DNA of 42,576 nucleotides from Halalkalibacter oceani. Its GTDB lineage: Bacteria > Bacillota > Bacilli > Bacillales > Bacillaceae_D. The notes under the pieces were generated by a model. It did not search any database. It was not told the DNA's origin and was given only the letters and a program-made list of their open reading frames with translations. The translations under genes and the position numbers were made by a program. The DNA lies in the NCBI RefSeq assembly GCF_023715605.1, contig NZ_JAMBOL010000030.1:1-42576 (forward strand), in the 5' to 3' direction. This document shows, in pieces, positions 1,562 to 10,879 of the stretch. The number at the start of each line of letters is the position of its first letter. The stretch's first letter is position 1.

Positions 1562-4500
1562 TTATTCCAGTCCTGCTAATACTCGATACAAGAACGTCGC
1601 AAATTCTGCGCGTGTCACGGTATCCTTTGGACGATAGACCGTTTCATTTGTCAGACCGTGCTGAGCAAGAATCACAATGTCATCCTTGTGAACACCCGCT
1701 GCCTGATCGCTATCGGAAAGATTTACCGTTTCACCTGTATTCTCAAGATCAAAAGCCCGTACAAGAATCGATGCCATTTGTTCCCGAGTTAATGGGTCGT
1801 TTGCTGCAAAACGGCCATTTGACTTCCCGTTCATAACCCCGGCATTTTCCACAGCCCAGGCGACCCGAGCATAATAATCATCGACATTCAAATCAGTAAA
1901 CGGCACTTCCGTTAACGTTGGAGGGCTCTCCAGCTGCAGAGCTGTTGTCAGCAGACCGGATCCCTGGCCACGGGATAATGCCTGGCTTGGCTTAAATGTT
2001 CCATCCGCATGCCCACTAATGATTCCTTGCTGATAAAGAGCTTCAACCGCTTCGTTAGCCCAGTGACCCGCAGGCACATCAGGGAATCGAGCTTCTCCCG
2101 GAGCAGCTTCTTCACTGGCTTCTGCAGCAAATAAGCTGTTTGCCAGTAAACGGAAGCTGTGACCTGTATGGGCACGATACGTTAAATCATTCGCAAATAA
2201 CGTAAAAGGCTGCTCTTCATATGTTGTTGTAAAGGCCAGCGTTTCGCCTTGCGCTCCTTCATGTCCAGGCCACCAGCCGGCAATAAAGAATTCGGAATCA
2301 TCCGCAACGCGGGCAAGAAGCTCGCTACCCTGCGGTACTGCTGTAATCCATGAGCCTGTCGTTACATACAGCTGCTCCTCTGCGTCATAACCAGCTGTAT
2401 AAGGGTGAGACGTCACATCCGCAAGAACAAGTCCTTCATGGGATAGCTCGGTAGTCGCAAAATCAAAGCCTTCAAGCAGGTTTGCTTCCTTGACTGCATT
2501 CAAAGAACGACCGCCAATTCCTACATAAGCTTTGCCGTTGATCGTATCAGGTGTCATTGCTCCTGCGTCATCGACGACAACATCTGCTTCGTCCAGCTCA
2601 ACAACCGGGAACCCAAGCTGTTCAACAACAAATTTGCTTTGCGCCGAACCAATTACAGCAACCTTAGGCTGCTCCAGCTCCCGTGTTTCGACCGTTTCTT
2701 CCACCGGTTCTACCACAAGCGTGTAATCATTGACGTAGCTTAGTAAATCGCTTGTTTGAACGAGGAAATCACCAGCGTATTCCCCACTCGTTACTTGCTC
2801 GACTGTTCTGCCGGCTGCAAGCAAGTCGTTCACCAGTTTTACAGCGTCATTATTCGAGTTTTCAATAAAGTAATGGGAAACCGTAGACTGAATCACGGTA
2901 CCCGGCTTTTCGATTGATTCTACAGCTTGTGCTGCACCGGCAAAGGCATTTTCTTCACGAACTTCAATGCTGTCAAAGCCGCGCAGTGCCGGGAAGTTTA
3001 CGACAATCGCATCATACATTGCTTCCCAGTCGGAAATATCCTCACCTGGATAAAGCATCGCATTGGCAAAGCCGCGCTTCGCCTGTTTCATCGGCACGAC
3101 ATATGTACCCGCCGGATACGTAACGCCGTTCACACTGACTTCCTCTGTTGTTTCTTCTACTTTGATTCCATTTCTTAGAAGATATTCAACCATATTCGTC
3201 GCTTCTAATACATTCTTTTGCAGCTGCTCATCAACAGGAATTACATAATATTCCGGGAAGAAGTTCTCATGTTCCCCGCGAATACGTCCAATCTCTTCTC
3301 CTGCCTGATTGACAAACCATGGATCGACGGCGCGGTTATCCTCGCCATCAACTCCGCGTTTGAACAAAGTAAGCTGATCTTTGAATAAATCATCTTTATT
3401 TTTCAATACATAATCAGTTGCACCAAGTCCGACATGGACAGCAGCGTACAATGAATCCTGGCTTAAATCCGGCACTTCTACCGTATGCCCAAGAGAACCA
3501 TGCAGCATTGTAAAAATAGCCGTATACGCCGGAGTCATATCATCCCAGCCATTTTCATAGTCAAAAAGCGGAATGAGGTAGGAGTCAATATCGGAATTGG
3601 CTACTCCGGCACGTCCCATCGCATGCGCCTGCTCAACCATATTATCAACGAGTAAATCATACTCAAAGTTTGGATTATGCGGCGGAGTGGCCGGCTCAAT
3701 TAAAAATCCTTTCACATATCCGTGAATATCAATAAAGGAAAGCGGCGTCCATTTCGCAATTTCCTCGTTTACTGCAATAGTCTCAACCTGAGTTTGATAA
3801 GCATTATCCCGATTCAAATCAAAACCATTGGCGTTTGCTCTCGTGTTTGCTACACGCCCATCCGGATTATGAGTAAAGTTGAACAAAATAATAAGGTGAT
3901 CAAGCACGTCATCGACATTTAACGTAACTGTGTGTTCTGCTCCGTTCTCATCTGTCGTCTGAAACGTCACTTCATCCTCCAGCGCAAGCTTATTCAGCAA
4001 TTCGATTTGCGCGTCGATCCCTTCCACTTCGTCCGGGTGAATATTATTAAACCAAATCGGAATTTGATAATCTCCCATCGTGCCATTCTCTAATTTTTCT
4101 AAAATCTCAGCCGGATTTTCTAATGCAGTCGGCAATGTTTCATCTAAATACTTCTCTACTGCCTGCTCATCTCTTGCCAGCACGACAAAATGAATATCGC
4201 GTCCTTCCGCACTTTCGCCAAGCTTCTTGTACTCTAAATAGCGATCACGATCCGCTTCAGCAAATACCTGATCGATCGCCGGCTTGATTTCTTCATACGT
4301 CCGGAATTCATCATAAACATTCAGCTTCATTTCAGCCGACGCAACTTGATCCGTTGCCGGGTCATGAAGCGTTAAAGCGTATTCCCCGATCAGCTCAGGA
4401 TAAAGAACACGAATGTTTCTTGGTGATAAATCCGTTGTTCCATAAGGAAGACCGAATTCGATCTCTGCTTCAATTGTCGTAGAATCTCCGACATAGGCAG

Positions 4501-4813
4501 GCTCCCGAACGACTGTTATGTAGGCATCGCCCGAATAATCACCGGCATCACTATCCCACTGCTTCCAGTCAGATAAAGCTTTTCCGCCAAATGACCATTC
4601 CAATCCGTCCAGGTCAATACGTTCCCCGAAATCAACCTGAACCTCTATCGTTCTTTCTTCCGTTATTGCTAAGAGAGATTGGCTAACGTCAAGCTCAACG
4701 GATCCCTCTACTTGTGCACTCTCTGTACTACCAGCAGCCTGTATCGCTTCAGCTGGAAGGATGACCGTCAAGGCAATCAGCATCGCCATCCACAGTGTGA
4801 GTAATTTTTTCAT
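1562..4813 (-). CDS. Secreted M14 zinc carboxypeptidase with C-terminal SLH domains
   Basis: Large exported peptidase (1083 aa), probably held on the cell wall. Residues 1-27 form a Sec signal peptide (MKKLLTLWMAMLIALTVILP, then a likely AxA-type cleavage site at AIQAA). An N-terminal beta-rich region precedes an M14 domain, which has the zinc motif HPDE (His259, Glu262), the third ligand in DIHGY (His364) and the catalytic Glu446 in HTVEVPD. A middle region of about 450 residues is unassigned. Three SLH repeats cover about residues 905-1083 and would bind pyruvylated secondary wall polymer. M14 enzymes release C-terminal residues from peptides; a nutritional role outside the cell is inferred. 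The start follows GAGGAGGAG. A perfect hairpin lies in the 5' leader. Confidence 0.9.
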   Translation of the reverse strand: MKKLLTLWMAMLIALTVILPAEAIQAAGSTESAQVEGSVELDVSQSLLAITEERTIEVQVDFGERIDLDGLEWSFGGKALSDWKQWDSDAGDYSGDAYITVVREPAYVGDSTTIEAEIEFGLPYGTTDLSPRNIRVLYPELIGEYALTLHDPATDQVASAEMKLNVYDEFRTYEEIKPAIDQVFAEADRDRYLEYKKLGESAEGRDIHFVVLARDEQAVEKYLDETLPTALENPAEILEKLENGTMGDYQIPIWFNNIHPDEVEGIDAQIELLNKLALEDEVTFQTTDENGAEHTVTLNVDDVLDHLIILFNFTHNPDGRVANTRANANGFDLNRDNAYQTQVETIAVNEEIAKWTPLSFIDIHGYVKGFLIEPATPPHNPNFEYDLLVDNMVEQAHAMGRAGVANSDIDSYLIPLFDYENGWDDMTPAYTAIFTMLHGSLGHTVEVPDLSQDSLYAAVHVGLGATDYVLKNKDDLFKDQLTLFKRGVDGEDNRAVDPWFVNQAGEEIGRIRGEHENFFPEYYVIPVDEQLQKNVLEATNMVEYLLRNGIKVEETTEEVSVNGVTYPAGTYVVPMKQAKRGFANAMLYPGEDISDWEAMYDAIVVNFPALRGFDSIEVREENAFAGAAQAVESIEKPGTVIQSTVSHYFIENSNNDAVKLVNDLLAAGRTVEQVTSGEYAGDFLVQTSDLLSYVNDYTLVVEPVEETVETRELEQPKVAVIGSAQSKFVVEQLGFPVVELDEADVVVDDAGAMTPDTINGKAYVGIGGRSLNAVKEANLLEGFDFATTELSHEGLVLADVTSHPYTAGYDAEEQLYVTTGSWITAVPQGSELLARVADDSEFFIAGWWPGHEGAQGETLAFTTTYEEQPFTLFANDLTYRAHTGHSFRLLANSLFAAEASEEAAPGEARFPDVPAGHWANEAVEALYQQGIISGHADGTFKPSQALSRGQGSGLLTTALQLESPPTLTEVPFTDLNVDDYYARVAWAVENAGVMNGKSNGRFAANDPLTREQMASILVRAFDLENTGETVNLSDSDQAAGVHKDDIVILAQHGLTNETVYRPKDTVTRAEFATFLYRVLAGLE

Positions 4814-4869: not shown

Positions 4870-5068
4870 AAACTATACCATAAAATTTCGCCAACAAAAA
4901 TATTAATCATGCAAAATGGCGAATTTTCATTCATTTCTTTCTTATAATTTCCTAAAAACCTTCAAATTTCTTCTCGCAGACTATTAGACTATTATGGTAG
5001 ATTCATGTCGAAAAACAAAAAAGAAGCAGAACTTTTGTCTAAAAATCATTAAATTTCAACATTTCTCT
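4870..5068. other. AT-rich divergent intergenic region
   Basis: Region between the M14-SLH gene (minus) and the agr-like operon (plus). It is strongly AT-rich, with no ORF, RNA gene or repeat visible apart from the flanking regulatory elements listed separately. Confidence 0.5.
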
Positions 5069-5104: not shown

Positions 5105-5140
5105 GGTTATTGTAAATATTCTGAAAAATAGACAATAACC
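5105..5140. promoter_or_regulatory. Inverted repeat upstream of the agr-like promoter
   Basis: GGTTATTGT (5105-5113) and ACAATAACC (5132-5140) form perfect 9-bp arms separated by 18 AT-rich bases. The centre-to-centre distance of the arms is 27 bp, between 2.5 and 3 helical turns. The element ends 10 bp before the -35 box at 5151, the usual place of an activator site. It is a candidate binding site for the missing response regulator of this operon. Confidence 0.6.
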
Positions 5141-5150
5141 GCAATTCTTG

Positions 5151-5179
5151 TTGAAGTTTATCTCTTTTTTGGATATAAC
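5151..5179 (+). promoter_or_regulatory. Sigma-A promoter of the agr-like operon
   Basis: -35 TTGAAG (5151-5156), 17-base spacer, -10 TATAAC (5174-5179), about 90 bases before the first start codon. A second, weaker candidate (TTGCCA, 16 bases, TAAAAT) lies near 5070-5097 and would place the inverted repeat inside the transcript. Confidence 0.6.
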
Positions 5180-5268
5180 TAAATCATACTATCTCTACTA
5201 GGTTGTCGTGTGCTTCTATTCGATTTCACAACACTCCCTTAGTACTTAGCTTAAAGGAGAAATGAAAG

Positions 5269-6534
5269 ATGCACCCTCTATTAACGTTCTGTATTTCAAT
5301 ACTTGAATGGTTTGCGTTATTAACATTTCCATTTGTCTTTATCGGCTACCGTTATCGACAATATGTGAAAAAGATCATCGTTCTCTCAGTCATAATGAGC
5401 ATCATCTCATTATTGTTACATTATACCAATTTACATCTCACCATCGTCATTGCCCTGCAAATGATTCTTATCTTTTTGATAGCCAAGCCGTTGTTTAAAA
5501 TGTCTAGCCTCGAGACCTTACTATTAACCGGAATGGGCTATGGATTTTATACATTTGTTCACATCGTTGTAATTGAATTGGATTTATTACTTTTATCTAA
5601 TTCTATCGTTTATTCTGAAGTTTTAATTTCTAATAAAATTTATGCCCTGCAGCTCACTTCATTTTTTATTGTCATTGCCCTTTCTTTACTAATATATTTT
5701 TTTAAATATCATTTAACTGAACTGTTCGTCCATCTTAAATTGAACGAACTAAATAAAAAAGGAAAAATTATTATTTATTTAAATTCCTTTTTAACCTACT
5801 TCTTTATTTGTTTAGCTTCATTCGTTATGGTGACGAATGAACTGCGATTCAGATATGCTTTTATTTTATTAAGTATTGTTGTGTTGTTTATGATATTTGC
5901 TGTTTATTTAATTTTGCATAATCAGTTTCAAAAGAAGCGACTCATTGAAGCCAAAAAGTTTTACTTCGATCAAGAAGAACAAGTATCTGTTTATATTGAA
6001 AACATTCAAAAGGACTTACGAAGCTCATATAAAGTAATGCAAAAATTATTTGAAAATAATTCTTATGAATTAAGCAAAGAATACTTCAATCAACATATTT
6101 TACCTAAAAGCAAAAAACACCAAAATCTTGAAATAGAGACGGCTATCCGCAAAAAAGATGAACTTCTTTACGTCTTTTTAATTAATAAGCGTAAGCTTGC
6201 TAATTTACTCGGTGTTTCAATATCAACAACCATTGATCTAACAGACCATGTACCGATTACCCTACCTCACATTCAGTTTTTAAGCAATATAATCGACGAC
6301 CTACTTTTCGCACTTTATGAAACAACTCACTATCAGGATAAACAAATTCATTTTAAACTCACTTCTACAAAAAATCATGTTATTTATGAGATTGCCAGCA
6401 ACTTAGACTTTGATAAAAGCAATAGTCACAGCAAAATTTATGATGCTATCATTGGTTTCAAGAAAAATAAAGCAGTTATAGAATCAACGTTTAATCCGCT
6501 GATGCTATCCATTAGCTGTGAAAAGCTTATGTAA
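5269..6534 (+). CDS. AgrC-like membrane sensor with degenerate kinase domain (pseudokinase)
   Basis: 421 aa. Residues 1 to about 220 hold six or seven hydrophobic helices, as in the AgrC peptide receptor. A helical segment follows that aligns by eye with the AgrC dimerisation/phosphoacceptor region: QKDLRSSYKV..ELSKEYFNQHILP against RHDY..LRDYFNKNIVP of staphylococcal AgrC. The acceptor His is replaced by Lys248. In the ATPase part, the N-box Asn is missing (IIDDLLFALYET, about 341-352) and no GxGL box is found, so kinase activity is unlikely. It is the first gene of an operon with the AgrB- and AgrD-like genes, 15 bases before agrB, and its start follows AAAGGAG. It may bind the peptide and signal by protein contact, or form part of the export/immunity machinery. 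No response regulator gene is nearby. Confidence 0.75.
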   Translation: MHPLLTFCISILEWFALLTFPFVFIGYRYRQYVKKIIVLSVIMSIISLLLHYTNLHLTIVIALQMILIFLIAKPLFKMSSLETLLLTGMGYGFYTFVHIVVIELDLLLLSNSIVYSEVLISNKIYALQLTSFFIVIALSLLIYFFKYHLTELFVHLKLNELNKKGKIIIYLNSFLTYFFICLASFVMVTNELRFRYAFILLSIVVLFMIFAVYLILHNQFQKKRLIEAKKFYFDQEEQVSVYIENIQKDLRSSYKVMQKLFENNSYELSKEYFNQHILPKSKKHQNLEIETAIRKKDELLYVFLINKRKLANLLGVSISTTIDLTDHVPITLPHIQFLSNIIDDLLFALYETTHYQDKQIHFKLTSTKNHVIYEIASNLDFDKSNSHSKIYDAIIGFKKNKAVIESTFNPLMLSISCEKLM

Positions 6535-6549
6535 AACAAGGAGGAGCAA

Positions 6550-7143
6550 ATGATTGAGCATTGGGCCACTCTCGCAGCATCTAAAATTAAAAACATGAAT
6601 CCTGAAGAAACAGCACCTCATGATGTCCTAGTATTCGGATTTACAATTTTAATTAATTTATTTATTACCTTTTCTTTGATATTACTTGCCGGCTTTTTAT
6701 TCGGAAAGACATGGCTTGCCTTTCAAGTTGCCTTATCATTTATGGTAATAAGAATTTTAACTGGTGGTGCTCATTTAGATCGTTCGTTAGCTTGCTCAAT
6801 CAACAGCCTTTGCCTTGTTGTACTCTTTTTATGGCTACCTATTACAAATGCATTAATTTTAGTTTATGCAGCAGTTGCATTTCTTCTGATCATCCGTTTT
6901 GCTCCGTATTATGAACCTCATCAGATGAAGCATTCTGCGGAGTGGGAAGCCAAAAAGAAAAAGGCAGCTTTAGCTTGTATTGTGTTATTTCCCGTCCTTT
7001 TCTTTACGCTGCAAACCCCCGGCTTTGTCACTGGGGCCTTACTTCAGGCTTTACTGCTGACCCCTTTTGGGATTTCAGCGACTCATAAATTAAATACGTT
7101 TACTAATAAAGGAGGTGATTATCTTGAAAAAAGAACTAGCTAA
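6550..7143 (+). CDS. agrB: AgrB-like accessory gene regulator peptidase
   Basis: Membrane cysteine endopeptidase (197 aa) that should cut the C-terminal tail from the AgrD precursor and close the (thio)lactone ring. The family core RILTGGAHLDRSLAC is present with His75 and Cys82, spaced exactly as His77/Cys84 of Staphylococcus aureus AgrB. Four to six hydrophobic helices surround it, with a basic loop (SAEWEAKKKKAA) near residue 135. The start follows AAGGAGG. The 3' end overlaps the agrD-like gene by 20 bases, so the two are translationally coupled. The catalytic pair is intact, so unlike the sensor this protein appears functional. Confidence 0.92.
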   Translation: MIEHWATLAASKIKNMNPEETAPHDVLVFGFTILINLFITFSLILLAGFLFGKTWLAFQVALSFMVIRILTGGAHLDRSLACSINSLCLVVLFLWLPITNALILVYAAVAFLLIIRFAPYYEPHQMKHSAEWEAKKKKAALACIVLFPVLFFTLQTPGFVTGALLQALLLTPFGISATHKLNTFTNKGGDYLEKRTS

Positions 7144-7249
7144 GTACATCTCTAAAGCAACAACTGTTTGTTCTTCTGCATTTGTGCAAGCATCAAGTCC
7201 TTTTTCTCACGCTCCGAAGATTCCAGAAAGCTTGAAAAAGCAAAAGTAA
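7124..7249 (+). CDS. agrD: AgrD-like cyclic lactone autoinducer precursor, 41 aa
   Basis: Short gene starting at TTG (7124) after an almost perfect ribosome site, AAAGGAGGTGAT. The product begins MKKELAKYISKATT, an amphipathic basic leader, and ends HAPKIPESLKKQK. This matches the conserved AgrD tail (xxPKxPExL) that AgrB removes. In known precursors the ring residue stands five residues before the 'xxPK' element (for example C-x4-Y-x-P-K). Here that position is Ser24 or so (SSPFS then HAPK), suggesting a serine lactone ring like that of enterococcal GBAP rather than a Cys thiolactone. The only Cys, residue 16, is too far upstream for the usual ring, though a larger ring cannot be excluded. 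Mature peptide length is inferred. Confidence 0.82.
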   Translation: MKKELAKYISKATTVCSSAFVQASSPFSHAPKIPESLKKQK

Positions 7250-7256
7250 TGGAAAA

Positions 7257-7301
7257 CAAAAAAGCTGTCCAAGGTCGTAAAGACCACGGACGGCTTTTTT
7301 G
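7257..7301. terminator. Bidirectional terminator between agrD and glaH
   Basis: AAAAAAGC-GTCC-GGTC pairs with GACC-GGAC-GCTTTTTT. It starts 8 bases after the agrD-like stop codon and ends about 5 bases before the stop of the convergent glaH gene, with A/T runs on both sides. Confidence 0.85.
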
Positions 7302-7305
7302 CTTT

Positions 7306-8238
7306 TTATCGTGAAAAGCGTCCCCTTTGACGAAGCAGCTCGCGGTGCAAAAGTGGATCTTTTTCAAAAGGCGCGCGGCCGTGTAACCAAAATAGATTGT
7401 TGAGCATCACTAAATCCCCAACTGGCAACGTTAATTCGATGACGCTTTGATCGTTCTCCATGGAAGCGGACAAGTCTTTTAAATACTCGGCCTGTTCAAT
7501 TGTTTCTGAGTGAACAAATTGGTCGATAAAACAGATGCATGGCTTATTTTGCTGTTGGAAAAATGTCGTCCGTTTGATCTCCTGGCTGACATTTTTACTT
7601 GGCGGCGCTTTATAGGTGAATTCATGAGAAGCCAATGGATGGCTTGCGAAGTGTTCAAGCTCCTGCCAGTCATCGAGATGAAGCAGTCTTGATTCACCTC
7701 CGCGTGCGTGTTCTTCCTGCATCTTCATCATTAGCAGCCAATCCGTCGGTTCATCGACAAAGGTGCCGTCTGTATGCAATGTAAACAAACGATAGGCCTG
7801 CCTTAAATAGGAATCACTCTCGTCAGTATCCTTGACAGAGAAGCGGGCATAGAATTTATTTGACATTGCGTCATGGTTGGGCAACCCGGCAAGATGAGCC
7901 AGTGCTGTGGAAAAAATAACAAACTCATCTAAATCAGCGCTTTCTCCTTGTACGCCAATGGTAAATCCTCCTGTCTGACGATCATGAAGAATGCTTCTAA
8001 CCACATCCTGGAGATCAGTCCCTGCTTCCTGCAAAAGATAACCGGCTACCATATGTCGTTCATAAGGTGTATATTCCAGCCGCTGCACCGAAATGTTCTT
8101 TCTTCGTACTTGCTCAAAAAAACGCGCAACAACGCCCGGCTTCATTTCAATATGGAACAATCGCTTACTTTGCGGGTGAACCTGCACCTCATATCCCTTT
8201 CCAGTTACCAGCTTTTCTTTTTGCTCCATCAGACTCAT
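7306..8238 (-). CDS. glaH: Glutarate 2-hydroxylase (GlaH/CsiD family)
   Basis: Fe(II)/2-oxoglutarate-dependent dioxygenase that hydroxylates glutarate to L-2-hydroxyglutarate in lysine/5-aminovalerate breakdown. The 310-residue product matches the E. coli CsiD/GlaH fold along its length. It has the iron triad HTDG (His155, Asp157) and His286 in NNLFWLHGR, plus the family signatures GGESRLLHLDDW, APPSKNVS, FIDQFV and RELLRQRG. The ATG at 8238 is preferred over the in-frame GTG one codon upstream because of spacing from AAAGGGGAAG. The usual partners (L-2-hydroxyglutarate oxidase lhgO, gabD, gabT) are not next to it. The aldehyde dehydrogenase gene 18 kb away cannot be tied to it. It appears to be a single-gene unit. 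Confidence 0.93.
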   Translation of the reverse strand: MSLMEQKEKLVTGKGYEVQVHPQSKRLFHIEMKPGVVARFFEQVRRKNISVQRLEYTPYERHMVAGYLLQEAGTDLQDVVRSILHDRQTGGFTIGVQGESADLDEFVIFSTALAHLAGLPNHDAMSNKFYARFSVKDTDESDSYLRQAYRLFTLHTDGTFVDEPTDWLLMMKMQEEHARGGESRLLHLDDWQELEHFASHPLASHEFTYKAPPSKNVSQEIKRTTFFQQQNKPCICFIDQFVHSETIEQAEYLKDLSASMENDQSVIELTLPVGDLVMLNNLFWLHGRAPFEKDPLLHRELLRQRGRFSR

Positions 8239-8292
8239 CACGTTTCTTCCCCTTTCTCATGTTAAAATCGCTCTTAAACGAATTCAACAAAA

Positions 8293-8334
8293 AAAGCCAG
8301 GCATTATGTAAGGAACATAATACACTGGCTATCA
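8293..8334 (-). terminator. Terminator of the SDR/acyl-CoA ligase operon
   Basis: AGCCAG..ATTATGT and ACATAAT..CTGGCT pair around AAGGA, followed on the minus strand by a run of seven T (8293-8299). It lies about 180 bases after the ligase stop codon and just upstream of the glaH start region. Confidence 0.75.
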
Positions 8335-8510
8335 TTTACATCATTGCCCTACGGGAATAGGGTCACTGTAAATCATTCAGTCATTATTTTGTTTTCGTTT
8401 AAAATAGCGGTTTTCAGACCATACTTACGATTTGCATATGGAAGGTACACAAAGGTAAGTATTTATCTTTATTCATAATTTATCAATTTTCTTAAAAATT
8501 GTCAATATTC
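8335..8510. other. 3' region of the acyl-CoA ligase transcript
   Basis: Non-coding AT-rich stretch. It holds a perfect 8-bp inverted repeat, ATACTTAC (8421-8428) and GTAAGTAT (8455-8462), with a 26-base loop and no T-run. I see no ORF. Confidence 0.4.
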
Positions 8511-10034
8511 TCATTTTAATATTTTCTTATCGAGCTTCCCAACCGCTGTATAAGGAAGCTGCTCGATGATTTCCACTTCTTTTGGTATTTGGTGTTTAGC
8601 CACTTTTGCGCGGAGCCAGACCATCAGTTTTTCTTGATCCAGGCTTTTTTTCCTTTCCGGTTGTACAAATGCTTTTAATCGCTGTCCAAACAGCGCGTCG
8701 TCTATTCCGATGACTGCCACATCCTTGACGAGCGGGTGCTGCATGAGAACCTGCTCCAGCTCAACAGGATACACATTGATTCCGGCTGAAACGATCATTT
8801 CATCTGTCCGCCCACATAAAAAATAAAACCCTTTCGGATCACGATAGCCGATATCTCCTGTTTCGATCCACACTTCATTTCCGGTTTTCTGTGACCAGCT
8901 CTGTTTCACACAAAACTGCCCCGGCTCGCCCTCTGTCACGGGCTTACCGGCAGGATTGACGATTTTGAAGCGCCCGCCGACCGGTTTTCCGATCGTTTGC
9001 GGATTAGCCATTAAGTCAGCCGGCGTGGCGATCGTATTAAGTCCTGCCTCCGAGGTACCATATAGGTTATACAAAACTGGTCCCAGTTTTTGCAGAGCCT
9101 CTTTTGCCAGCTCTGCATGGAGCCTCGCTCCTCCTGAGACGATACAAGCCAAGGATTGCAGAGAAGCCGCGTCTTCCTCAAGCATCTTTTGCAGCATTAA
9201 CGGAACGACAGTGATCACCTCGACGTGATGCTGACGAATCAGATTGCAAGCTTGCTTCGTTTGGAAGGATTCTCTAATGAATATCGTCTTTCCGAGTATG
9301 ATTCCCATAAACAAAACGGCGACTCCATATCCATGATAAAGCGGAGTAGCAATATAGGTTCGATCATAGCGATGCAGCTTCACTTTCGTCAGGAGCGCTA
9401 AAAAAGGCTGTACATAATTGAACAATGAGGGCTGATGGCCTGCTTCCTTCGGCGTTCCTGTTGTTCCCCCCGTTAACAGCACCACTTTCCCCATCACCGT
9501 TTTCGTTCGCCTTCGCTTGTTTTCCGTTTTCGTTTTCAAAAACTGCTCGATTGATGGAAGATGGGTGTGCTCGTAGCTTAGCACTATCTTGTCAGAGGAA
9601 GACATGACGCTCCAGTTCTTATCAGCGATAAGCAGGTCGAAGTTTTTCTGCTTCAATAGCTCTTTTAGCTGGTTCACACTCATGTCCGGATTGAGCAAAT
9701 AGACAGCGGCCCCTGCCGAGGTAAGCGAAAAGATCGCCCTTACAAGCGAAGCATGGCTTTTGCAAATGAGGCCGACCCGCTGAGCAGGCCCAAGCTGATA
9801 CTGCTCCTGCCAAATGGCAGTAAGCTGTTCGATTTCAACTGCTAATTGCTTGTAGCTGATTTTTCCTCTGGCGTCGCATAGAGCAGTCTTGTCCCCATAC
9901 ATGTCGGCATTCACCCGCAGGAGCGCAAGTATATTCATTCCGTCTTTGCGCAGCGCAAAGAACAATCTCATTAACCTTGGCGGGGAAAACAACTTCATCA
10001 TGACAAGGACACGAAGAAACGTCCATAGTCTCAC
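8511..10034 (-). CDS. AMP-dependent acyl-CoA ligase/synthetase
   Basis: 507 aa member of the ANL adenylating superfamily, predicted to activate a carboxylic acid (probably a fatty acid) as acyl-AMP and then acyl-CoA. Motifs: phosphate-binding LLTGGTTGTPKEAG (about residue 187), NLYGTSEAG, ETGDIGYRD and the C-terminal catalytic lysine region AVGKLDKKIL, with the hinge around CGRTDEMIVSAGINVYP. The start is GTG at 10034 after AAGGAGGGGG and overlaps the stop of the upstream SDR gene by four bases (GTGA), so the two are coupled. The substrate is not readable from sequence. Pairing with an SDR reductase suggests fatty-acyl or beta-keto-type lipid metabolism, as inference. Confidence 0.9.
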   Translation of the reverse strand: MRLWTFLRVLVMMKLFSPPRLMRLFFALRKDGMNILALLRVNADMYGDKTALCDARGKISYKQLAVEIEQLTAIWQEQYQLGPAQRVGLICKSHASLVRAIFSLTSAGAAVYLLNPDMSVNQLKELLKQKNFDLLIADKNWSVMSSSDKIVLSYEHTHLPSIEQFLKTKTENKRRRTKTVMGKVVLLTGGTTGTPKEAGHQPSLFNYVQPFLALLTKVKLHRYDRTYIATPLYHGYGVAVLFMGIILGKTIFIRESFQTKQACNLIRQHHVEVITVVPLMLQKMLEEDAASLQSLACIVSGGARLHAELAKEALQKLGPVLYNLYGTSEAGLNTIATPADLMANPQTIGKPVGGRFKIVNPAGKPVTEGEPGQFCVKQSWSQKTGNEVWIETGDIGYRDPKGFYFLCGRTDEMIVSAGINVYPVELEQVLMQHPLVKDVAVIGIDDALFGQRLKAFVQPERKKSLDQEKLMVWLRAKVAKHQIPKEVEIIEQLPYTAVGKLDKKILK

Positions 10035-10879
10035 CTTGTCCCCCTCCTTTTCGCAAGCCGCGCACGAAACAACGACTCTATCAATGGCCGGAGGATGCTA
10101 GCAATTGGCTCGCCGACAGTGATCCACCATGGCCTGAATCGTTTTTGTTTCGTATAGATCGCGCGGGCAATCAATCTGGCAACATGTTCCGGAGCCATCG
10201 CCGGCATCTTTTCATACTGGGGAGTCGGGAGGATCATCGGCGTCCGGACTAACGGCAAATAAAAAGAAGTCGTATTGATGCCCATTGCTTTCAGCTCCGG
10301 CTCCGCTGAGCGGAACCATGTGTCAAAGGCGGTCTTCGACGCTTGATAGGCCGCCCAGTCAGGAACAGGAATAAATAAAACATTGATCGTCGACATATGG
10401 ATGATATGCCCTTGATTTTTTTCGAGCAATGGAATAACCGACAACAGCAATCGGACAGGAGCAAAATAATTAATCGCCATCGTCCGCGTGAAATCATGAT
10501 AGCGCTCCAACGAATCCTCAATCGAGCGCCTGATCGATTTCCCAGCATTGCTAACAACAATATCCAGCCCATCGGGAAGCTGGTGCAGGTAGTGAAGCAA
10601 GCCGCTCATCTCCTCCTCCTTACGCAGATCGGCGGCATACACACTGACCTTTGCCGACCGCTGCTGCAAAGCGTCCTGCATCTCGATCAGCTTCTCCTTC
10701 CTTCTCGCCACTAAAATCAGATGAGTGCACATTTCCGCTAACAGATAGGCTGTTTGCTCACCAATACCCGAGCTTGCCCCGGTAATAAGAACGGTTTTCC
10801 CATTCAGCTCTCGTTTAAGCTTTTTCTCATTTACGTAAGGTTCAGGGAATAATAAAGTTTCAATGACGTTAATATTCAT
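10031..10879 (-). CDS. Short-chain dehydrogenase/reductase
   Basis: 282 aa classical SDR acting on a carbonyl or hydroxyl group with NAD(P)(H). The nucleotide-binding TGASSGIG is at 33-40 and NAG at about 111. The catalytic Ser163 (HMST) and YQASK (Tyr178, Lys182) are all present. A basic residue in VARRK after the second strand suggests NADP preference. The C-terminal extension (FRPWWITVGEPIASILRPLI) is hydrophobic and could touch the membrane, as in lipid-acting SDRs. It is the first gene of a two-gene operon with the acyl-CoA ligase. The start ATG follows AAGGAAGG. Confidence 0.9.
   Translation of the reverse strand: MNINVIETLLFPEPYVNEKKLKRELNGKTVLITGASSGIGEQTAYLLAEMCTHLILVARRKEKLIEMQDALQQRSAKVSVYAADLRKEEEMSGLLHYLHQLPDGLDIVVSNAGKSIRRSIEDSLERYHDFTRTMAINYFAPVRLLLSVIPLLEKNQGHIIHMSTINVLFIPVPDWAAYQASKTAFDTWFRSAEPELKAMGINTTSFYLPLVRTPMILPTPQYEKMPAMAPEHVARLIARAIYTKQKRFRPWWITVGEPIASILRPLIESLFRARLAKRRGTR

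Follow-up and report, generated by a model that had tools for sequence, protein, structure and literature searches.

A putative split Agr system in Halalkalibacter oceani: a kinase-dead AgrC homologue that probably signals through a separate KinB-like kinase

In known Agr systems, the pheromone receptor and the histidine kinase are one protein, AgrC, which acts on the regulator AgrA. Other arrangements have been described around sporulation. According to one report (PMC6011975), the kinase KinB works with a membrane partner of six helices, KbaA, and with the lipoprotein KapB. Another (PMC10602386) indicates that agrB1D1 of Clostridioides difficile promotes early sporulation and that the receptor is not known there. 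Here we analyze an Agr-like operon in a stretch of 42,576 nucleotides of Halalkalibacter oceani, hereafter the window, which makes up contig 48 in a draft genome of 4.47 Mb (G000). The operon encodes an AgrC-like sensor, AgrB and AgrD, in that order, as the original prediction from the same DNA had it. We consider it probable that this is a split Agr system, in which the peptide would act on a kinase-dead AgrC and, through it, on a separate KinB-like kinase probably feeding the Spo0 phosphorelay. At the sequence level this reading is supported by the operon itself, the loss of three kinase motifs throughout the sensor family, purifying selection, the co-occurrence and adjacency of sensor and kinase genes, the intact motifs of the kinase and a sigma-H-type site in half of the genomes.

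The sensor gene (5269-6534, plus strand) encodes a protein of 421 residues with about seven hydrophobic stretches, which no Pfam family recognises and which is 97% identical to a copy on a contig of Halalkalibacter oceani strain P106. A profile of ten sensors was compared with one of six AgrC proteins, taken from loci whose appearance, judged by eye, was canonical in that AgrB and a regulator of LytTR type adjoin (G027, G040, G090, G093, G099 and G358). The two profiles aligned with a probability of 98.7 and an E-value of 4.3e-16; the alignment spans 356 columns and runs from the N-terminus as far as residue 384. The likeness to AgrC, which had been traced only as far as the dimerisation helix, is therefore real and reaches well beyond it. 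All six reference AgrC match the GHKL and Spo0B-type helical domains. A comparison of the sensor profile with solved structures gave nothing meaningful, the best E-value being 0.88.

Patterns for three motifs (RHD-type, N-box and GxG box) match none of the ten sensors and all eight AgrB-linked control kinases, among them short kinases from G003 and G008, two genomes of the window's genus. The alignment places Lys248 of the window's sensor in the column of the phosphorylated His, as had been proposed, and Asp344 in that of the N-box Asn; a G-box is missing. Across the ten sensors the phospho-His column reads K, K, K, K, A, E, N, E, E, N and never H, so that the lysine itself, expected to be conserved among relatives, is found in four only. 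The N-box Asn column holds D in nine sensors and E in one. The transposase-interrupted sensor of G050 was omitted from two of these alignments (A1 and A3), its N-terminal piece being used in the first alignment only. In G003 (L110 2400-3916) and G008 (L111 3723-5194), AgrB follows a kinase of about 280 residues with RHD, N-box and GxG intact, and no LytTR regulator was seen by eye within 8 kb of this Agr-like pair.

The absence of all three kinase motifs could also be that of an AgrC decayed in one lineage, and the original prediction had pointed to relatives with an intact His and GxG box as the sign of such a decay. None of the ten has them, although members of the family diverge down to 31% identity. 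Moreover, the dN/dS ratio of the sensor against its counterpart in G007 is 0.031, and 0.029 for the C-terminal residues 301-421 alone; the corresponding values are 0.061 for AgrB and 0.011 for the partner kinase described below, and AgrD is identical in the two genomes. Local decay was thus rejected on the family-wide loss of the motifs and the low dN/dS, and we give it next to no credit. For the same two reasons we regard the sensor, on sequence grounds, as a conserved pseudo-histidine kinase kept under purifying selection rather than as a decayed copy.

No response regulator is encoded within the operon, in line with what had been noted, nor in the genes adjoining it. A second intact AgrC with an AgrA encoded elsewhere, also envisaged by the original prediction, is unlikely. 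Indeed, the genome has a single AgrB match, the operon's own, and three LytTR matches, one of which carries a receiver domain (245 aa, contig 69) and is unlinked to the operon; the 15 GHKL-domain matches were taken as a count rather than individually.

A candidate partner for the sensor comes from its relatives. In eight of the ten genomes with the pair (G014, G016, G022 for its second sensor copy, G050, G084, G199, G264 and G271), the gene of a soluble histidine kinase of 262-294 residues as called immediately precedes the sensor gene, in the same orientation. The gap between the two genes is 10-40 nt in the seven cases measured, and the frames as called overlap in G050. HisKA and HATPase_c domains score far above cut-off in both of the kinases scanned. 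In the six sequences compared, the motifs HEIRNPL and GTGxGL as well as Trp9 are invariant and a membrane helix is found in none; the N-terminus carries an aromatic/basic stretch. The window's genome has 34 kinase matches, the first of which (G000:C36:67505-68314, minus strand) is the only close orthologue, with 65% identity and an E-value of 2.1e-117, the next best being at 1.8e-37. Its gene, on contig 36 and hence outside the window, is flanked by two genes on the opposite strand.

The sensor is rare and patchy. Of 100 related genomes, 8 gave a match, which is full-length or nearly so in seven (including the interrupted copy of G050) and a weak stretch with stops in one, G049; within the window's genus, two of 13 genomes have it. 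A profile search of 397 genomes of the order recovered it in nine, plus weak partial matches in four more: G358, which is a canonical agr locus, G095, where the end of a sensor lies at a contig edge beside AgrB, G092 and G128. In a phylum-wide sample of 398 genomes, the window's own was the only one where the match extended across most of the sensor, and ten others gave weak partial matches (best E-value 9.9e-7). No relative was confirmed in viral contigs or plasmids. G016 also has the remains of another sensor gene, containing stops (L034 6428-6910), with no kinase of the partner family adjoining.

The kinase follows this distribution. Among the 100 relatives, it is found (E <= 1e-50) in seven genomes, which are the same seven that have a full-length sensor. 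Among the 397 genomes of the order, it is found (E <= 1e-70, a threshold picked after the result from the 100 relatives) in nine, again the same nine that have the sensor at E <= 1e-108, spread over five families and seven genera; it was not detected at E <= 1e-70 in the four genomes with weak sensor matches. Since these genomes are related, such counts are not independent trials. This comparison across genomes nevertheless makes a split between receptor and kinase well supported, and sensor and kinase are probably in contact. Of the options that the original prediction had left for the output, a separate kinase that listens is now strongly supported, jointly with signalling by binding. Its core, an Agr-like operon that has a pseudokinase sensor and lacks a response regulator, is correct, and its interpretation as a whole stands in part: it is extended by a kinase encoded outside the window, and its further option of a transporter or immunity factor found no support.

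That last option, in which the sensor would protect the cell against the peptide or transport it, draws on the position of a membrane protein of no Pfam family next to a peptide-maturation pair. However, homology to AgrC over 356 columns, the pairing with a histidine kinase and the lack of any transporter match above cut-off all speak against it, and its probability is minimal. Another possibility is that the sensor works as a membrane-bound, Spo0B-like phosphotransfer protein through a histidine in the column of residue 253. This histidine occurs in seven of the ten sensors, exactly those with an adjoining kinase gene, and a membrane-bound Spo0B is described in Paenibacillus (PMC12826061). 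On the other hand, the column holds S in the window copy and in G007 and P in the first copy of G022; ordinary AgrC, judged by eye, often has a second His there besides the phosphorylated one; and the genome encodes an ordinary Spo0B (87.6 bits, RHDW motif by eye). Because the window copy lacks the histidine, phosphotransfer through it cannot hold in the window's system, and for the family as a whole we consider this explanation very improbable.

Regarding the output of the kinase, sporulation kinase B (3d36) counts among the three solved structures closest to it, and a Spo0B is encoded in the genome. A scan of the upstream regions used the sigma-H consensus pattern RNAGGAWWW, gap, RNNGAATWW, with gaps of 11-13 allowed. 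In G000, G007, G016, G022 and G050, a site scoring 13-15 of 15, with a gap of 11 or 12, starts 95-117 nt before the chosen kinase start. Between 1 and 22 of 1000 shuffles reached the score of these sites. Such a site is thus present in 5 of 10 kinase upstream regions, compared with 6 among 155 upstream regions of other kinds (Fisher p 1e-4, with no correction for relatedness). Once aligned, the five regions agree fully in the GAAT part and are out of step in the AGGA part, owing to the two gap lengths of 11 and 12. Across the whole genome, 31 occurrences of a shortened pattern stand against 20 of its reversed form, so that a single site would mean little, and the evidence lies in the fact that five genomes have it at one and the same position. 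In B. subtilis, kinA belongs to the sigma-H regulon (PMC12421865).

AgrB (6550-7143, plus strand, 197 aa), the presumed peptide-processing membrane endopeptidase, matches PF04647 with 87.5 bits for a cut-off of 23, and His75 and Cys82, counted by eye, are seven residues apart, which bears out the His/Cys pair first recognised. AgrD (7124-7249, plus strand, 41 aa), the candidate pheromone precursor, matches TIGR04223 with 20.5 bits, a narrow pass over the cut-off of 19. Its most likely start is the TTG at 7124, within the 3' end of agrB, over the GTG at 7115, judging by eye from the spacing to GGAGG and from relatives. Of the 11 sensor loci, 10 have AgrB next after the sensor, the exception being the second copy of G022, and AgrD stands behind AgrB in nine of these ten. 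In the tenth, in G014, a transposase gene starts at the place of AgrD. G022 has two AgrD in tandem. Insertion elements are seen at L035 3872-6974 and L037 3844-5127, where one transposase gene splits the G050 sensor and the other occupies the AgrD place of G014.

The ten aligned AgrD peptides share FVxASSPxxHxP, in agreement with the conserved tail claimed for the window's peptide, and vary at the two residues preceding the His. By register with the AgrD of S. aureus, we take the ring to be SSPxx. Closed through its first Ser, it would be a lactone, and the ring predicted for the window's AgrD is SSPFS, followed by HAPKIPESL. The Cys of this AgrD lies upstream of the predicted ring and is not conserved. 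Variable ring ends between invariant flanks would fit a diversifying pheromone. With the His/Cys pair in AgrB, and an amphipathic leader and a conserved tail in AgrD, the two predicted proteins have the features by which the AgrB and AgrD of an Agr quorum-sensing system are recognised.

We thus propose the following mechanism. AgrB would trim AgrD to a Ser-lactone peptide with the ring SSPFS, which would be exported and bind the membrane part of the sensor. The change induced by the peptide could then travel along the helix to the dimerisation region of the sensor, whose degenerate cytoplasmic part would hold and switch the soluble KinB-like kinase; the aromatic/basic stretch at the N-terminus of the kinase may dock on the sensor or on the membrane. 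The sensor would therefore be a membrane receptor and a scaffold, itself unable to phosphorylate. Spo0F would be the most likely substrate of the kinase, and the level of peptide would in this way enter the Spo0F-Spo0B-Spo0A phosphorelay around the entry into stationary phase. We consider a sporulation output likely and give Spo0F itself an even chance of being the target. The fullest version of this proposal makes the Agr pheromone a direct extracellular input to the sporulation phosphorelay, with a three-part receptor (peptide, pseudokinase and soluble kinase) coupling Spo0A to cell density, and with a kinase that still serves the operon in Halalkalibacter although its gene lies outside it. 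To this we attach slightly less than an even chance.

Several observations weigh against the proposed split system. The kinase gene is unlinked to the sensor in G000 and G007. In G095, AgrB lies beside the end of a sensor at the edge of a contig, and the kinase was not found there. G022 has two sensors and one kinase of the partner family. Structures predicted for the whole sensor and for its cytoplasmic portion, each from two near-identical sequences, have mean pLDDT values of 44.6 and 42.2, too low for the models to be of use. The separation in G000 and G007, together with the agr-linked sensor of G022 that has no adjoining kinase, would suit an explanation in which sensor and kinase belong to separate pathways, the sensor binding another protein and the gene order reflecting shared regulation only. 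We find this improbable, as the two genes occur in the same nine of 397 genomes across several families and genera and adjoin each other in eight genomes, with short gaps wherever these were measured. G022 itself is a natural case of one kinase with two receptors. Its two loci (L031 6172-8350 and L032 5721-7822) divide the genes: one sensor is followed by AgrB and the tandem AgrD, without a kinase; the other has the kinase, without AgrB or AgrD.

The remaining difficulties concern the output. No site with both sigma-H cores was found upstream of the kinase in G014, G084, G199, G264 and G271, and none was found upstream of the window's agr operon, where it was also sought. Of the three best solved relatives of the kinase, ThkA (3a0r, 149 bits) stands above sporulation kinase B (3d36), and ZraS (9jfj) is level with the latter (144.7 bits each). 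The leading NCBIfam models are those of AtoS, ZraS, PnpS and KinD, with AtoS and ZraS scoring as high as KinD or above it. Similarity therefore does not fix the target of the kinase, since ThkA, ZraS, AtoS and PnpS rank with or above KinB and KinD. Nor do the NCBIfam models separate the groups, because three further HEIRNP kinases from this genome rank the models in much the same way. In a tree of the ten family kinases and 11 more taken from the window's genome, the family forms one group (support 100/99), placed beside the HEIRNP kinases and tied to none of them singly. For this tree, the loci of 15 of the 34 kinase matches of the genome were fetched; one was the family member, and three of the other 14 gave no frame and were omitted.

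One could thus assume that receptor and kinase are indeed split but that the kinase addresses some regulator apart from Spo0F, such as an AtoC/ZraR-type protein or an orphan LytTR protein encoded elsewhere. The scores of the AtoS and ZraS models favour this, as does the existence of the 245-residue receiver-LytTR regulator on contig 69. However, that regulator is not linked to the kinase either, no receiver gene was seen by eye beside the kinase in the loci of nine of the ten genomes (that of G007 being taken to its flanks only), and the recurrent sigma-H-type site upstream of the kinase points elsewhere. We therefore judge this alternative unlikely, though a serious one, and retain the split system with a probable route to the Spo0 phosphorelay.

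The operon ends at a strong intrinsic terminator (7257-7301, plus strand), whose fold has an energy of -27.5 kcal/mol and a z-score of -6.9, with none of 200 shuffles equally stable; a simple pattern scan counted no terminator, this hairpin included. The original prediction had the operon bounded by a promoter as well. That part was not confirmed, the promoter scan giving 11 promoter-like sites versus 11.0 expected in shuffles, that is, no excess over chance. On the 5' side, a gene for an SLH-domain protein of 1083 residues (1562-4813, minus strand) is divergent, its start lying 455 nt from the sensor gene. A TGTCGAA at 5006-5012, 263 nt before the sensor start and at an equal distance in G007, resembles the Spo0A-box, single 7-mers being weak evidence. 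On the 3' side, the minus strand (7306-10879) carries a gene for a CsiD-type oxygenase (PF08943), convergent with the operon; after it come genes for an AMP-binding enzyme and a short-chain dehydrogenase, with a frame overlap of four bases.

Finally, the proposed system can be compared with those already described. In the open-access literature, searched by abstracts and with most subscription papers outside this scope, no pairing of an AgrC-like pseudokinase with another kinase, separate from it, came to our notice. One parallel is provided by DivL and CckA of Caulobacter, where a kinase-dead homologue of a histidine kinase is reported to control a real kinase; the pathway is unrelated, and DivL is not a pheromone receptor. 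The Spo0B-TM of Paenibacillus (PMC12826061) combines a membrane part with a Spo0B/AgrC-type helical region and has no kinase activity. Unlike the window's sensor, with its seven or so hydrophobic stretches and no such histidine, Spo0B-TM keeps a phosphorylatable His and has two membrane helices. With the KinB/KbaA/KapB system (PMC6011975), the partner kinase shares a KinB-like core, the absence of a regulator gene beside it and, as we propose, the help of a membrane protein, but it has no membrane part of its own, and its putative partner is a pheromone-linked AgrC homologue. The proposal would bear on the activation of KinB-type kinases, about which "little is known" in the wording of PMC11210211. 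The orphan agrB1D1 of C. difficile (PMC10602386) resembles the window's system by having an Agr peptide without AgrA and differs from it in that here there is a receptor of AgrC type, together with a candidate for the kinase; our proposal could also be of use for how such a peptide promotes early sporulation without a known receptor. From canonical agrBDCA, the window's operon keeps AgrB, an AgrD with the conserved recognition tail and an AgrC-like membrane receptor of similar length. It departs from it in that the receptor has neither the phospho-His nor the N-box and G-box, no AgrA-like regulator adjoins it, and it is accompanied by a soluble kinase that is a protein of its own and belongs to a different family. 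Receptor and kinase functions thus seem to have been cut apart and the AgrC-AgrA route replaced by this kinase, which suggests how a quorum signal may be connected to a new output with no change in its peptide machinery.

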